Virus record (IMG/VR): IMGVR_UViG_3300042301_003333
Coordinates: 1-55,966 of that record
Origin: a virus
Length of the DNA: 55,966 nucleotides
Direction: 5' to 3' (one strand)
The notes below the pieces were generated by a model. The model worked only from the letters and a program-made list of their open reading frames with translations, did not search any database and was not told the origin of the DNA. Each line of letters starts with the position of its first letter. The first letter of the stretch is position 1. Both the position numbers and the translations under genes were made by a program. Shown piece by piece: positions 11,212-24,965 of this stretch.

Positions 11212-11438
11212 CAAAGAACAAGACGAAGCCAAAAGCCAAACGCATCCACACCGACGAGGCGCTGCCCGTCTGGGCGCTCGACTCCGGCCACGACGGCCTC
11301 CTCGAAATCTACGCGGTGAACGGCCGCCTCGAACTGCGCTGTGACCTGACCTTCGTCAACGACGACTCCGACGACGAGGACGGCCTCGCCCGGCTCAAGG
11401 AAGAGGCGGCGGGCTACGCCGAGGGGAATCGGGAATGA
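11208..11438 (+). CDS. small acidic protein
   Basis: A 76-aa protein with a basic Lys-rich start (MTKNKTKPKAKRIHTDE), a central beta segment (PVWALDSGHDGLLEIYAVNG) and an Asp/Glu-rich C-terminal half. Unknown function. ATGA overlaps at both ends place it in the same transcript as the terminase. Confidence 0.6.
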   Translation: MTKNKTKPKAKRIHTDEALPVWALDSGHDGLLEIYAVNGRLELRCDLTFVNDDSDDEDGLARLKEEAAGYAEGNRE

Positions 11439-12316
11439 GCGCAGCCGACGAGATCAAGGCTCGCCTCGCCGGTCGCCGCGTCGTCGCCAGCGTCAGCGGC
11501 GGCAAGGACTCGGCCGCCATGTCGCTCTACCTGACCGAGCTCGGCATCGAGCACGACCGAGTCTTCTGCGACACCGGCTGGGAGCACGACCTGACCTACG
11601 AGTACCTGCGCGGGCCGCTCGTCGAGAAGCTCGGGCCGATCACTTGGCTGGAGCCCAAGCGGAAGATGGAAGAGCTGATTCTTCACAAGGGCATGTTCCC
11701 GAGCCGGCAGCGCCGCTGGTGTACGCAGGAACTCAAGGTCCGTCCTTTGGCGCGACACTTCAAGGCCCGGATGGACGAGGGTGACGACATCGTCAACGCG
11801 GTCGGGATTCGCGCGGCCGAGTCCGAGTCGCGGTCCAAGATGCCCGAATGGGAGTGGCAGGACGGTTTTGACTGCGAGGTCTGGCGACCGCTCCTGCGGT
11901 GGTCCGAGCAGGACGTCATCGACATTCATCACAGGCACGGGCTTCGACCGAACCCGCTCTACCTGCGCGGGGCGCAGCGCGTGGGCTGCTGGCCGTGCAT
12001 CTACGCCCGCAAGGACGAGATCAAGTTGATTGCCGACACTGACCCTGACCGCATCGTCCGTCTGCGAGTGCTTGAAGGACAGGTGGCTGAGAAGGCGCAC
12101 GCCCGAGCCGCCGAGAAAGGCGAGACGCTCAAGAACGACCCCGCGTGGTTCCAGGCGAAGAACGGGGGCACTGGCGACTGCTGGCCCATCGACAAGGCCG
12201 TCGAGTGGTCGAGGACGGCCCGAGGCGGAAAGCAGTTTGAACTGTTCGCCGCCGACTCTCGGGATGCGGGATGCATGAGGTGGGGACTCTGTGAGACGAA
12301 TGGGAGGTCTGAATGA
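11435..12316 (+). CDS. PP-loop PAPS-reductase/DndC-like enzyme
   Basis: A 293-aa protein. PP-loop SGGKDS (21-26) for ATP/PAPS binding, then the family-typical RRWCTQELK (Cys96) and a GCWPC pair (Cys185, Cys188), which with a further Cys could hold an iron-sulfur cluster. In this superfamily PAPS reductases make sulfite, while DndC-type proteins activate sulfur for DNA phosphorothioation. Phages often carry such genes as auxiliary metabolic or DNA-modification genes. No DndD/E-like partner is visible, so the substrate is undetermined. It is coupled by ATGA on both sides. Confidence 0.8.
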   Translation: MSAADEIKARLAGRRVVASVSGGKDSAAMSLYLTELGIEHDRVFCDTGWEHDLTYEYLRGPLVEKLGPITWLEPKRKMEELILHKGMFPSRQRRWCTQELKVRPLARHFKARMDEGDDIVNAVGIRAAESESRSKMPEWEWQDGFDCEVWRPLLRWSEQDVIDIHHRHGLRPNPLYLRGAQRVGCWPCIYARKDEIKLIADTDPDRIVRLRVLEGQVAEKAHARAAEKGETLKNDPAWFQAKNGGTGDCWPIDKAVEWSRTARGGKQFELFAADSRDAGCMRWGLCETNGRSE

Positions 12317-17419: not shown

Positions 17420-17620
17420 ATGCCGCTCAAGTCGCTTCGGCAAATGCGTTACCTGTATGCGGCAGAGGCGCGCAAGGAAGTGCCGAAGGGCACGGCCGCG
17501 AAGTTTGTCGCCGAGACCGGCAAGGCCAAGCTCGCGAAGCTGCCCGAGGTCGTGAAGCGCAAGGACCGGCGGCGGCTCGACCCGCTCGTCAAGGCGCGAC
17601 GCGCCGGGAAGGCGAAGTGA
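17420..17620 (+). CDS. small basic protein
   Basis: A 66-aa Lys/Arg-rich helical protein (SLRQMRYLYAAEARKEVPKG, then KRKDRRRLDPLVKARR). Only 2 nt separate it from the previous stop, and its own stop overlaps the next GTG (GTGA, 17617-17620). Function unknown; the pattern resembles small phage head-locus proteins. Confidence 0.65.
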   Translation: MPLKSLRQMRYLYAAEARKEVPKGTAAKFVAETGKAKLAKLPEVVKRKDRRRLDPLVKARRAGKAK

Positions 17621-17982
17621 GCGACGCGCTCAAGCGGTTCGCCGCGACCATCCCGAAGCCCGCGCCCGCCGACGGCGGCGAGGGCCGTGCGCTCGAGCGC
17701 CTGCGCGGCGAGGCGACTGCGGCCGGTGCCACGCTAGCCAAGCAGGGCAAGGGCGGCCTGCCGGCGTCGACCGCGCTCGGCGTTTTCCGTCGCGACCAGT
17801 ACCGCTGCAAGAAGTGCGGCGGTCGCGAGAACCTCGAGTTGCACCACAAAGCCGACCTCAAGCACCCGCCATCCCTGCGTCTCGCCCGCATGTCGGTTGG
17901 GCTCGACCCGCGCACGATTGTCGTCGTCTGCGCCCGAGACCATGATCGCATCCACGCCGCCGATGAGGCTCTGAGTGGCTAA
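17617..17982 (+). CDS. HNH-endonuclease-like protein
   Basis: A 121-aa protein with CKKC (near 67-70), LELHHK (about 77-82) and VVVCARDHDRIH (about 101-112): the paired cysteines and histidines of an HNH nuclease. HNH proteins near terminase and portal genes are often needed for packaging-associated cleavage. The N-terminal 50 residues are a basic/Ala-rich extension. GTG start, GTGA coupling. Confidence 0.75.
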   Translation: MSDALKRFAATIPKPAPADGGEGRALERLRGEATAAGATLAKQGKGGLPASTALGVFRRDQYRCKKCGGRENLELHHKADLKHPPSLRLARMSVGLDPRTIVVVCARDHDRIHAADEALSG

Positions 17983-22386: not shown

Positions 22387-23808
22387 ATGGCTGACTTTTC
22401 CGTCATTGCCCAGAGCGGCCAGGTCCGCGCTCTCGTGCAGGAGGGCTTGCTCGAGCGCGCCTTCCACGACTCTCTCTTTCCCCGCATGTTGTTCCGTGGC
22501 GATGCCGAGCAGAAGGCTTGGACCGCGAACCTCGGCGATTCGATGTACTTCACGGGCGCCGGGCTGCTCGACATCAGCCTGAAGCCGCAGCAGGCGAACG
22601 TCGACCCGACCCCGTCCACCTACTCGAACGAGCAGTGGATCGGCCAGCTCAACAGCTACTCGGGCAGCATCGACACGAACATCCCGACGAGCGTCAACGC
22701 CATCGCGGACCTGTTCGTTCGCAACGCCCAGCAGCTCGGCCTCGCGGCGGCGAAGACGATCAACCGCCTCGCCCGTGACAAGATGTACAACGCGGCCCTC
22801 GACGGCCAGACCGTCGCCGACGGCGCGGCGTCCTCGGGCGCCTCGACCATCGCGGTCAAGCGGCTCAACGGCTTCACCACGGCGCGCAATCCCGGTCTGC
22901 CGAGCGGCTCGCCGGTGCGCTTCGCTCCGGTGACCAGCGGCAACCCGCTCGCCATCCTCATCAACGTCGGCGGCTCGCTCGTCGCCAACACGGTCGTGGG
23001 CTACGTCCCCGGCGTCGCCGGTGACGAGATCGGGCCGGGCTCGCTCGTGCTCGGCACGCCGCTGTCGGGCAACGTCTCCGACCGCGCCGCCATCCTCGCG
23101 GTCGACCGCTCGGTCGTCATCCGCGCCGCGACGAACGGCGGGCAGGGCATCAACTCGACGGTGGACTCAGTTGACGCCGTGTTCTCGATGACCCAGATCC
23201 GCGCGGCGGTCGCCCGCTTCCGCCAGCAGAACGTCCCCGAGTACGCCGACGGGTCGTTCCACTCGCACCTCGACCCGATCTCCGAGGCCGAGATCTACGA
23301 GAGCACCGAGTTCCAGCGCCTCAACACGAGCTTGCCGGACTATTACATGTACCGGCAGTTCGCCATCGGCCAGATGCTCGGCGTCACGTTCTTCCGCAAC
23401 ACGGAGTGCCCGGTCAAGGAGACCGTCATCGGCGCCGGCGACAGCAACGCGACCGAGGTCTTCACGCAGGATGATCCGTTCGCGGGCGAGATCTGGAACG
23501 CCTCGAACACCGAGATCCACCGCGTGCTGTTCAGCGGTCAGGGCGGCCTGAACGAGTACTACCAGGACGTCGGCCAGTACATCACCGACGCCGGCCTGAC
23601 GGGCAAGCTCGCGACGCCCGCCATCACGAACAACGGCATCGAGGTGAACAGCGACAAGATCACGCTGATCATGCGCGCGCCGCTGAACCGCCTGCAGGAC
23701 CTCGTGTCGACCTCGTGGCGCTACGTCGGCGACTTCGTCGTCCGCACCGACGCCGCCGTGGGCGACAAGAGCCGCTACAAGCGCATGCTCACCGTCGAGC
23801 ACAAGTAA
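22387..23808 (+). CDS. major capsid protein
   Basis: A 473-aa protein. Identification rests on position (after scaffold, before neck genes), size, and a soluble mixed alpha/beta sequence with an N-terminal helix, an extended arm (QANVDPTPSTYSNEQWIGQL) and C-terminal TSWRYVGDFVVRTDAAVGDK, as in HK97-fold capsids. It is flanked by structured noncoding spacers, as expected for a highly expressed gene. The subfamily is not assigned. Confidence 0.85.
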   Translation: MADFSVIAQSGQVRALVQEGLLERAFHDSLFPRMLFRGDAEQKAWTANLGDSMYFTGAGLLDISLKPQQANVDPTPSTYSNEQWIGQLNSYSGSIDTNIPTSVNAIADLFVRNAQQLGLAAAKTINRLARDKMYNAALDGQTVADGAASSGASTIAVKRLNGFTTARNPGLPSGSPVRFAPVTSGNPLAILINVGGSLVANTVVGYVPGVAGDEIGPGSLVLGTPLSGNVSDRAAILAVDRSVVIRAATNGGQGINSTVDSVDAVFSMTQIRAAVARFRQQNVPEYADGSFHSHLDPISEAEIYESTEFQRLNTSLPDYYMYRQFAIGQMLGVTFFRNTECPVKETVIGAGDSNATEVFTQDDPFAGEIWNASNTEIHRVLFSGQGGLNEYYQDVGQYITDAGLTGKLATPAITNNGIEVNSDKITLIMRAPLNRLQDLVSTSWRYVGDFVVRTDAAVGDKSRYKRMLTVEHK

Positions 23809-23826
23809 GACACGCTGCCTTCTCTC

Positions 23827-24238
23827 GGGCCTCCGTCGCGATGTAGTCGACGGACGGAGGCCCACCAAGGTCGCGACTCGGCAGCTCCAAGCGGAGCGCC
23901 ACACGACAGCGGCAGCAGTCGTGAGTCGCAACCGAGGCGATGTCCACCAGGCGTGGACTAGCAAACGCCTCGCATTGTGACCCTCGGAGAGGGTCACCTA
24001 CCGGCGGGGCTTCGGTCCGCGCCGGCACACGGGGGCAAACCCTGCGGCTTTTGCCGCATGGAACCGCCCCTGATAACTTGGACACGACGGCTTCGGCCGT
24101 CGGGCGTCGAGGGTTCCGAGCTTTGCTCGGACCTCACATGACGTGCGGCGCAGAAGCGTCGTCGGGAGCATCCGGGACAACCTCGGTCAATGGTTGGTTC
24201 GCTCCCGCGACACACACTCTGCGCCGCGTCTTTTTTTT
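23827..24238 (+). ncRNA. candidate structured noncoding RNA after the capsid gene
   Basis: The 441-nt gap after the capsid gene has no credible ORF and many perfect helices: 23827-37/23853-63 (11 bp); a three-way junction closed by 23873-79/23923-29 holding 23884-88/23893-97 and 23902-07/23918-23; 23933-39/23966-72 around 23942-47/23953-58; 23977-85/23989-97 (9 bp, 3-nt loop); 24001-06/24020-25; 24043-48/24053-58; 24085-91/24096-102 with a TTCG loop; 24115-21/24125-31; and a long rod, 24145-54/24218-27, with inner helices 24164-69/24201-06 and 24178-82/24192-96. GTC and a T8 tract (24231-24238) follow. It may be a 3'-UTR structure, an independent RNA or a packaged RNA; none can be proven here. 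The first hairpin may simply end the capsid mRNA. Confidence 0.6.
24145..24238 (+). terminator. rod hairpin followed by T8
   Basis: Stem GCGGCGCAGA (24145-24154) / TCTGCGCCGC (24218-24227), with internal helices, then GTC and eight T. This is the best U-tract terminator in the window. It sits only 11 nt before the next ATG, so that gene would need read-through or another promoter. Confidence 0.6.
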
Positions 24239-24249
24239 GAGGATTTCAC

Positions 24250-24531
24250 ATGGGTCGTCCGAGGAAGTACCCGCTCGCCGCGCCGGCAGACGCCGCCCAG
24301 GTCGAGTTCGTCGTCGAGCCGCCGCAGGCCGTCGAGGCCGCGCCGGTCGTCGAGCCGGTCGTCGTCGAGAAGCCGCGCGCGGGCCTCTACCGCGTGACGC
24401 GCGGCGTGTTCTTCAACCAGCACGGCGCGTCGCAGTGGCTTGCGGTAGGGACTCTCATTGACGAGTCCGTCGTGGGCGCGGCCCATATCGCGGAGCTCAA
24501 GAGGCATCGGATTCCGCTCGAGGAGGTGTAG
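24250..24531 (+). CDS. neck-region hypothetical protein
   Basis: A 93-aa protein with a disordered Pro/Val/Glu-rich first half (VEPPQAVEAAPVVEPVVVEK) and a folded C-terminal part (LYRVTRGVFFNQHGASQWLA). It starts just after the T8 terminator, with GAGGA before the ATG. By position it could be a small head-tail joining protein. Confidence 0.6.
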   Translation: MGRPRKYPLAAPADAAQVEFVVEPPQAVEAAPVVEPVVVEKPRAGLYRVTRGVFFNQHGASQWLAVGTLIDESVVGAAHIAELKRHRIPLEEV

Positions 24532-24533
24532 CC

Positions 24534-24965
24534 GTGCCGTCCCTGCTCACCGACACCGAGAAGGCGCAGATCCGACAGATCCTCGGCTACCCGAACGTCT
24601 CTCGCCTCACGGCGCTGATGGAGCTCTCGCCTGCGCCGCGTCAGCTTTCGTTCCTGCTTGAGCCGGCGATGGACGCGCTGCTTCCGCAGGCGGTCGCCAT
24701 CGTGCGGCAACTCATCTGTCAGTGCGAGGCCATCGAGTGCCAGCTCGGGCAGAGCGCGGACCGCATGCAGGCCGCCTCGGTGGGCAACCTCAAGATGCGC
24801 GCCGACGAGCAGGACGCGCTCGAGAAGCTCTACGTCCGCTTCGGTCGCCGTCTCGCCGACGTCCTCGGCGTGCCGCCGTACCCGCTGTCTGTGCGCTACC
24901 AGACCGACCAGACCGTCAACCTCGGGCCGTACGCGGGCAACCTCCGCATGCGGATGATGAACTAG
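24534..24965 (+). CDS. head-tail connector protein (adaptor-like)
   Basis: A 143-aa helical protein with a GTG start 2 nt after the previous stop; GAGGAGG gives a strong ribosome site. Length and helical content (PSLLTDTEKAQIRQILGYPN, then LEKLYVRFGRRLADVLGVPP) fit adaptor proteins that bind under the portal. The name rests on gene order. Confidence 0.6.
   Translation: MPSLLTDTEKAQIRQILGYPNVSRLTALMELSPAPRQLSFLLEPAMDALLPQAVAIVRQLICQCEAIECQLGQSADRMQAASVGNLKMRADEQDALEKLYVRFGRRLADVLGVPPYPLSVRYQTDQTVNLGPYAGNLRMRMMN

Follow-up and report, generated by a model that had tools for sequence, protein, structure and literature searches.

The gap behind the major capsid protein gene of the phage analysed here (the window, a stretch of 55,966 nucleotides of viral DNA) holds a folded RNA of roughly 430 bases that belongs to a well-supported RNA family, which is defined by a signature hairpin (M1), a terminal rod capped by a pseudoknot, and a long-range closing helix. 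This RNA is nearly confined to phages that also encode a small HNH-endonuclease-like protein, which suggests that RNA and protein work together. We give a probability of about one half to the reading that the RNA is the RNA subunit of an HNH ribonucleoprotein made along with the capsid mRNA, a partnership and a function that we infer.

The capsid gene (22387..23808, + strand, as are all features mapped below) encodes 473 aa and matches phrog_1357, major head protein, with an E value of 5.6e-10. Between its stop codon, which ends at 23808, and the next ATG at 24250 lies a gap (23809..24249) of exactly 441 nt, and the size reported by an earlier reading made from the sequence alone (the sequence-only reading) is borne out by the gene coordinates. 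That reading had proposed a comparison of the folding energy with dinucleotide-shuffled controls, and the energy of the gap is indeed far lower: the gap reaches a minimum free energy of -239.8 kcal/mol, whereas 100 shuffles average -181.9 (sd 5.8) and none of them equals it (z = -9.98), and in a scan with 400-nt windows the gap is the most structured place of the whole 56 kb. It had also seen no credible ORF, which is correct: no conserved ORF was found in the gap, a 173-aa ORF at 23940 is absent from close relatives, and the relatives differ by indels with lengths not divisible by three, for example the matched 2-nt deletions on both sides of one helix. All the elements it had named (a three-way junction, a hairpin with a 3-nt loop, a UUCG hairpin, and a rod followed by U8) were recovered, and the covariation that it had called the deciding test is strong among relatives. 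The H-type pseudoknot inside the rod, the cross-family motifs and the linked HNH gene had not been noticed.

The hairpin right after the capsid stop codon (23827..23863, in the fold of close relatives) probably does not belong to the special RNA, since L018, L020 and other relatives without the RNA also have a hairpin at this position in their short gaps. It is followed by a three-way junction domain (23869..23933), present in the consensus fold of six close relatives, and by motif M2 (23934..23971), GAGGCG-AU-GUCCAC..GUGGAC-UAGCAAA-CGCCUC, a helix whose internal loop recurs (UAGCAAA / ACGCCAA) and in which two pairs have changed on both sides among six close relatives. Next come a 9-bp hairpin with a 3-nt loop (23977..23997), with compensatory changes in three pairs among six close relatives, the hairpin CCGGCGGGGC-UUCG-GUCCGCGCCGG (24001..24025; fold of close relatives) and the family signature M1 (24030..24072), a hairpin of the form GCAAACCC-stem-UGGAACCGC with a conserved asymmetric internal loop. 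Two more hairpins separate M1 from the rod, namely CGACGGC-UUCG-GCCGUCG (24085..24102; sequence and fold of close relatives) and one at 24111..24134 with compensatory changes in three pairs. The long terminal rod (24140..24230; fold of relatives) bears at its tip the H-type pseudoknot (24172..24196), identified by compensatory changes and covariation, whose stems are CCG (24172-24174) with CGG (24184-24186) and CAACC (24178-24182) with GGUUG (24192-24196), and a run of eight U (24231..24238) directly after the rod forms a terminator-like end. Within the window clade, compensatory changes affect 10 of 141 predicted pairs. Downstream lie a small ORF of 93 aa without a family match (24250..24531) and the conserved next gene of 143 aa (24534..24965), which is present whether or not the RNA is.

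The three defining features recur among phages that share no more than 41-60% capsid protein identity. In an alignment of 34 sequences, 89.8% of the M1 cells are paired compared with 66.4% after shuffling, double changes number 95 compared with 30, and covariation reaches 0.564 compared with 0.156, a value attained by none of 500 shuffles; in the inner stem of M1, 123 of 124 pairs are formed (shuffled mean 78, maximum 95). The M1 of the window scores 46 bits with covariance model R1, with one match per contig. The pseudoknot follows the consensus [CCC]-(U)A-<CGNNN>-[GGG]-UAAU-<NNNCG>-GUUAAU in 26 sequences, among which its cross-family covariation is 0.557 against 0.180 (0 of 500 shuffles) and all five pairs of its second stem show double changes; the CCG..CGG stem of the window has become CGG..CCG in five of five close relatives, and compensatory changes are found throughout the terminal rod and pseudoknot across divergent loci. 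The closing helix joins the strand after M1 to the strand after the rod (GGCAG/CUGCC, GACAG/CUGUC, GGUGG/CCACC), with P = 0.0005 by strand swapping and z = -3.6 in a weaker duplex test; it shows weakly in the window. An M2-like element occurs in 14 of 56 loci (2.7 expected), and the window has M2.

Relatives were gathered from IMG/VR with a capsid protein search (35 loci) and a capsid profile (80 loci), which after removal of duplicates left 81 comparable loci, all of uncultured phages, in which M1, rod and pseudoknot were inspected to score the RNA. So scored, 58 of the 81 distinct capsid loci have a long structured RNA, four have short forms with rod and pseudoknot only, and 19 have none, although one of the latter (L036) was later found to possess a pseudoknot behind an HNH remnant. 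The distance from the capsid stop codon to the conserved second gene is about 390-650 nt in the short class and mostly 700-1100 nt in the long class, and the fold of the long gaps mostly has a z of -4 to -11. The RNA measures about 350-600 nt in the family; in the nearest sister group of the window (L007-L010) it is present at about 556 nt.

The genomic address of the RNA is strict. When 2.9 million viral contigs were scanned for the M1 pattern without regard to gene context, 40 stretches were returned; those newly fetched all adjoin this capsid or neck gene, except L140, a chance match with no matching stem, and the remaining ones are capsid loci already known. An earlier, looser pattern gave chance matches outside the capsid context (L037, L040, L043, L045, L046), which were rejected. 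The covariance model of M1 finds exactly one match in each M1-containing RNA-bearing contig and none anywhere in 15 contigs scored as RNA-less, which are up to 98 kb long. In 50,697 cultured-phage records the M1 signature yielded short chance matches only, and in the cultured phages Kromp and phiKX1, which are capsid relatives, the gap measures 58 nt and contains no RNA. A capsid search of bacterial genomes led to one contig, L129 (PMZA01000066.1), which belongs to a fen MAG assigned to Armatimonadota and may point to the host.

On the capsid tree, which is unrooted and has a poorly resolved backbone, the RNA label changes about ten times. RNA-less groups are nested among RNA-bearing ones, and therefore the RNA is most simply regarded as ancestral and repeatedly lost; because it was lost several times and is absent elsewhere in the contigs that lost it, it is dispensable. 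Reduction of the RNA is graded around L023, L105, L114 and L117. Shortened RNAs of 242-287 nt, in which only rod and pseudoknot are retained, are found in L091, L096, L105 and L114. Since the two short-RNA loci with enough sequence (L096 and L105) have no HNH gene, the rod may function by itself, or it may be a remnant.

The candidate partner of the RNA is a 121-aa protein (17617..17982) that resembles HNH families and tracks the RNA across contigs. Its gene is present in 12 of 13 RNA-bearing large contigs, the thirteenth of which ends just before the site, and in none of five RNA-less contigs, whereas TerL, portal, capsid, the flanking genes on either side and the neck genes occur in both groups; among the shared head-module genes of these 13 and five contigs, HNH alone separates them. 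The genes always follow one another in the order TerL - portal - 129-aa gene - HNH - ... - capsid - RNA - neck, with the HNH gene about 4 kb upstream of the RNA in the window and 3.7-10 kb in relatives. In a wider set, the HNH gene is found in all 21 M1-positive contigs with enough upstream sequence. It occurs in six of the 16 without detectable M1, all with a structured gap (L007, L010, L036, L069, L121 and L126, in which no M1 is recognisable), and is absent from ten, namely seven RNA-less loci, the two short-RNA loci just mentioned, and the 316-nt L023 without M1. Fisher tests, uncorrected for kinship, give P = 2e-5 for M1 and P = 8e-7 for the long-RNA label; a tree-aware sign test of RNA and HNH finds one or two independent pairs on well-supported branches and has no power, with on average no pair in the opposite direction. 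A reciprocal search from the HNH protein alone returned 45 loci; 22 of these extend from the capsid to the neck gene, and without exception their gap is RNA-sized, 700 nt or longer, whereas RNA-less loci reach 648 nt at most. In L064 the RNA is present with no HNH gene in the 5.6 kb of upstream sequence that the contig contains, a stretch that need not reach the gene, which can be as far as 10 kb away, and in L027 a stop inside the HNH match accompanies a poor RNA fold (z = -0.7), as would be expected if the pair decays together.

A relative of the protein matches Pfam HNH above the cut-off; the nuclease matches of the 121-aa protein itself fall within HNH families, with no match to RuvC. Residues H76, H77, H109, H113, C64 and C105 are invariant and fit an HNH/zinc site. 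The position of the catalytic Asn varies, and the residue is replaced in the window protein and in some relatives; nuclease activity is uncertain for this reason, and the partner may bind or nick instead of cutting, or may be inactive. The predicted structure consists of an N-terminal helix and an HNH domain (pLDDT 83), with a weak PDB fold match to the HNH protein of phage GVE2 (probability 0.92, E 0.13); by sequence no PDB entry was matched, and defence libraries gave weak generic nuclease matches only. Other genes also lie in this part of the genome: a DNA methylase (PF01555, 15259-16491) stands within the head module between portal and capsid, and a PAPS-reductase-like gene (phrog_424, 11435-12316) between terminase and portal. 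The gap itself is a hot spot for insertions: in L026, L061, L121 and L036, free-standing homing-type HNH ORFs or their remnants, distinct from the conserved HNH partner, are inserted after the capsid gene or the small ORF.

The specificity of the HNH link favours an RNA-protein pair. A sigma-70 promoter precedes the RNA in 4 of 56 loci (2 expected), which is no enrichment, and because no promoter was found we assume co-transcription with the operon: the gap would be transcribed as part of the head-operon transcript and yield a large, stable, structured noncoding RNA, presumably made late as a separate transcript, as the sequence-only reading also held. This RNA would adopt a compact fold of upstream hairpin domains (with M2 in some members), M1 and the pseudoknot-capped rod, drawn together by the closing helix in many members, and the U-run after the rod could end or attenuate it. 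Physically bound to the small HNH protein, it would be a subunit of a ribonucleoprotein that may serve as an accessory RNA-dependent nuclease or DNA-handling activity in late infection. The more specific proposal, that the two form a new RNA-dependent nuclease complex, unrelated to CRISPR or OMEGA systems, which acts on DNA in packaging or against competing DNA, is tentative, and we lean against it in this form. No hypervariable guide-like stretch is seen among six close relatives, which makes classical guiding by the RNA less likely.

Several rival explanations were weighed. The RNA might be a free-standing, trans-acting large RNA of the GOLLD/ROOL kind, with a role in RNA-only assembly or in taking over the host, and correlated with the HNH gene only indirectly, for example because the two are parts of one accessory module. 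Its size, multiple domains, pseudoknot and dispensability suit such an RNA, and the HNH protein is no more than a candidate partner; yet the RNA has no Rfam match to GOLLD or ROOL, its strict synteny is with the capsid gene and not with tRNA islands, and the link to HNH is specific, no other shared head-module gene behaving in this way. We regard this explanation as unlikely, if worth keeping in view.

With somewhat lower probability, the RNA could act in cis on the late operon, where as an attenuator, an antiterminator or a stabiliser of the mRNA it would balance capsid expression against that of the neck and tail genes downstream. RNA-less relatives manage the same, unchanged gene order with about 80-140 nt and a simple hairpin, and attenuation needs neither elaborate conserved internal loops nor a link to HNH; moreover, the RNA persists where a homing endonuclease ORF parts it from the capsid gene (L121, L036), which argues against a simple 3' element of the capsid mRNA. 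In its favour, strand and position never vary, the RNA having the orientation of the operon and lying between the capsid gene and one set of following genes; the window clade has a terminator-like rod with U8, and a U-run of at least four follows the rod in 24 of 56 loci.

Improbable to a slightly greater degree is a packaging or virion RNA that acts with terminase, with HNH aiding genome cutting, as an analogue but not a homologue of the phi29 pRNA. HNH proteins are known terminase partners in other phages (HK97 gp74), and here RNA, TerL, portal and HNH share the head module in constant order. Homologous TerL and portal are nevertheless kept in RNA-less relatives, which package without need of the RNA, the TerL is of the ordinary T4-like type, and the pRNA model (RF00044) found no match in seven records, in a search whose positive control was silent. 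Dispensability and the replacement by an 80-nt hairpin argue alike against an essential part of packaging and an essential expression switch.

Very little speaks for a mobile-element RNA or a self-splicing intron, degenerate or minimal, with HNH as its homing endonuclease: in L026, L061 and L121 the gap does contain homing-type HNH ORFs, and group II introns are known in phages (PMC12350094), but neither a group I nor a group II match was obtained (none to the group II intron domain, RF01998), the pseudoknot leaves no room for P4-P6 or P8, and the conserved HNH gene, unlike selfish homing genes, stays in one place in M1-bearing lineages even where capsid identity falls to 41-60%. Chance folding, although long ORF-free GC-rich stretches of a GC-rich genome do yield stems by chance, can practically be dismissed in view of a z of about -10 with composition kept, covariation counts and compensatory changes across divergent phages that already refute it, and an independent pattern scan that leads back to one locus.

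Only a small number of large structured phage RNAs have been described. The new family is recognisable by its signature motif and pseudoknot, keeps to one genomic address and has a single candidate protein partner, which makes the role of a large phage RNA directly testable; should the proposed link to HNH prove physical, it would add another HNH nuclease to those that depend on a structured RNA. In the literature searched, which did not extend to the 224-motif and large-RNA review papers, no structured RNA behind a phage capsid gene was found. Scans of all Rfam with the window and 16 relatives, at gathering and permissive thresholds, produced chance matches only; the Rfam search that the sequence-only reading had recommended thus ended without a genuine match, and the RNA is neither GOLLD nor ROOL, and probably not phi29 pRNA, as Rfam models them. 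GOLLD was covered by these whole-Rfam scans only, as HEARO was by all-Rfam scans, without a match, and the ROOL model, also searched directly, gave none in a search with no positive control. The 56-kb window contains no tRNA. By these tests the RNA is a member of neither GOLLD/ROOL nor HEARO/IscB.

Large phage RNAs of unknown function exist, and like GOLLD and ROOL the RNA described here is several hundred nt long, multi-domain, pseudoknotted, phage-encoded and dispensable (PMC12286853). Unlike them, the family is smaller (about 350-600 nt), lies in the capsid operon and not near tRNA islands, is linked to an HNH protein gene and has other motifs. With HEARO and the IscB omega-RNA (OMEGA) it shares a multi-helix structured RNA associated with an HNH protein; the protein here, in contrast, has 121-150 aa and HNH only, with no sign of RuvC, the RNA is kilobases from the protein gene, and no guide-like variable end was seen. 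The phi29 pRNA is likewise a phage RNA encoded among morphogenesis genes, but is much shorter, and in our family TerL is T4-like and relatives without the RNA keep their terminase. Mu-gpT-DE RNA (RF03012) is reported to follow a phage head gene, a likeness in position; it is a 53-position motif, with no match above the cut-off in seven RNA-bearing records. Finally, a noncoding RNA can be the most abundant phage transcript: the ~800-nt RNA of ICP1 (PMC7567579) and the lncRNAs of phage K (PMC9241854), abundant noncoding RNAs whose role is likewise unknown, belong to other phages and loci. Set beside these systems, the novelty of the present one lies in a new RNA family together with a new candidate partner.
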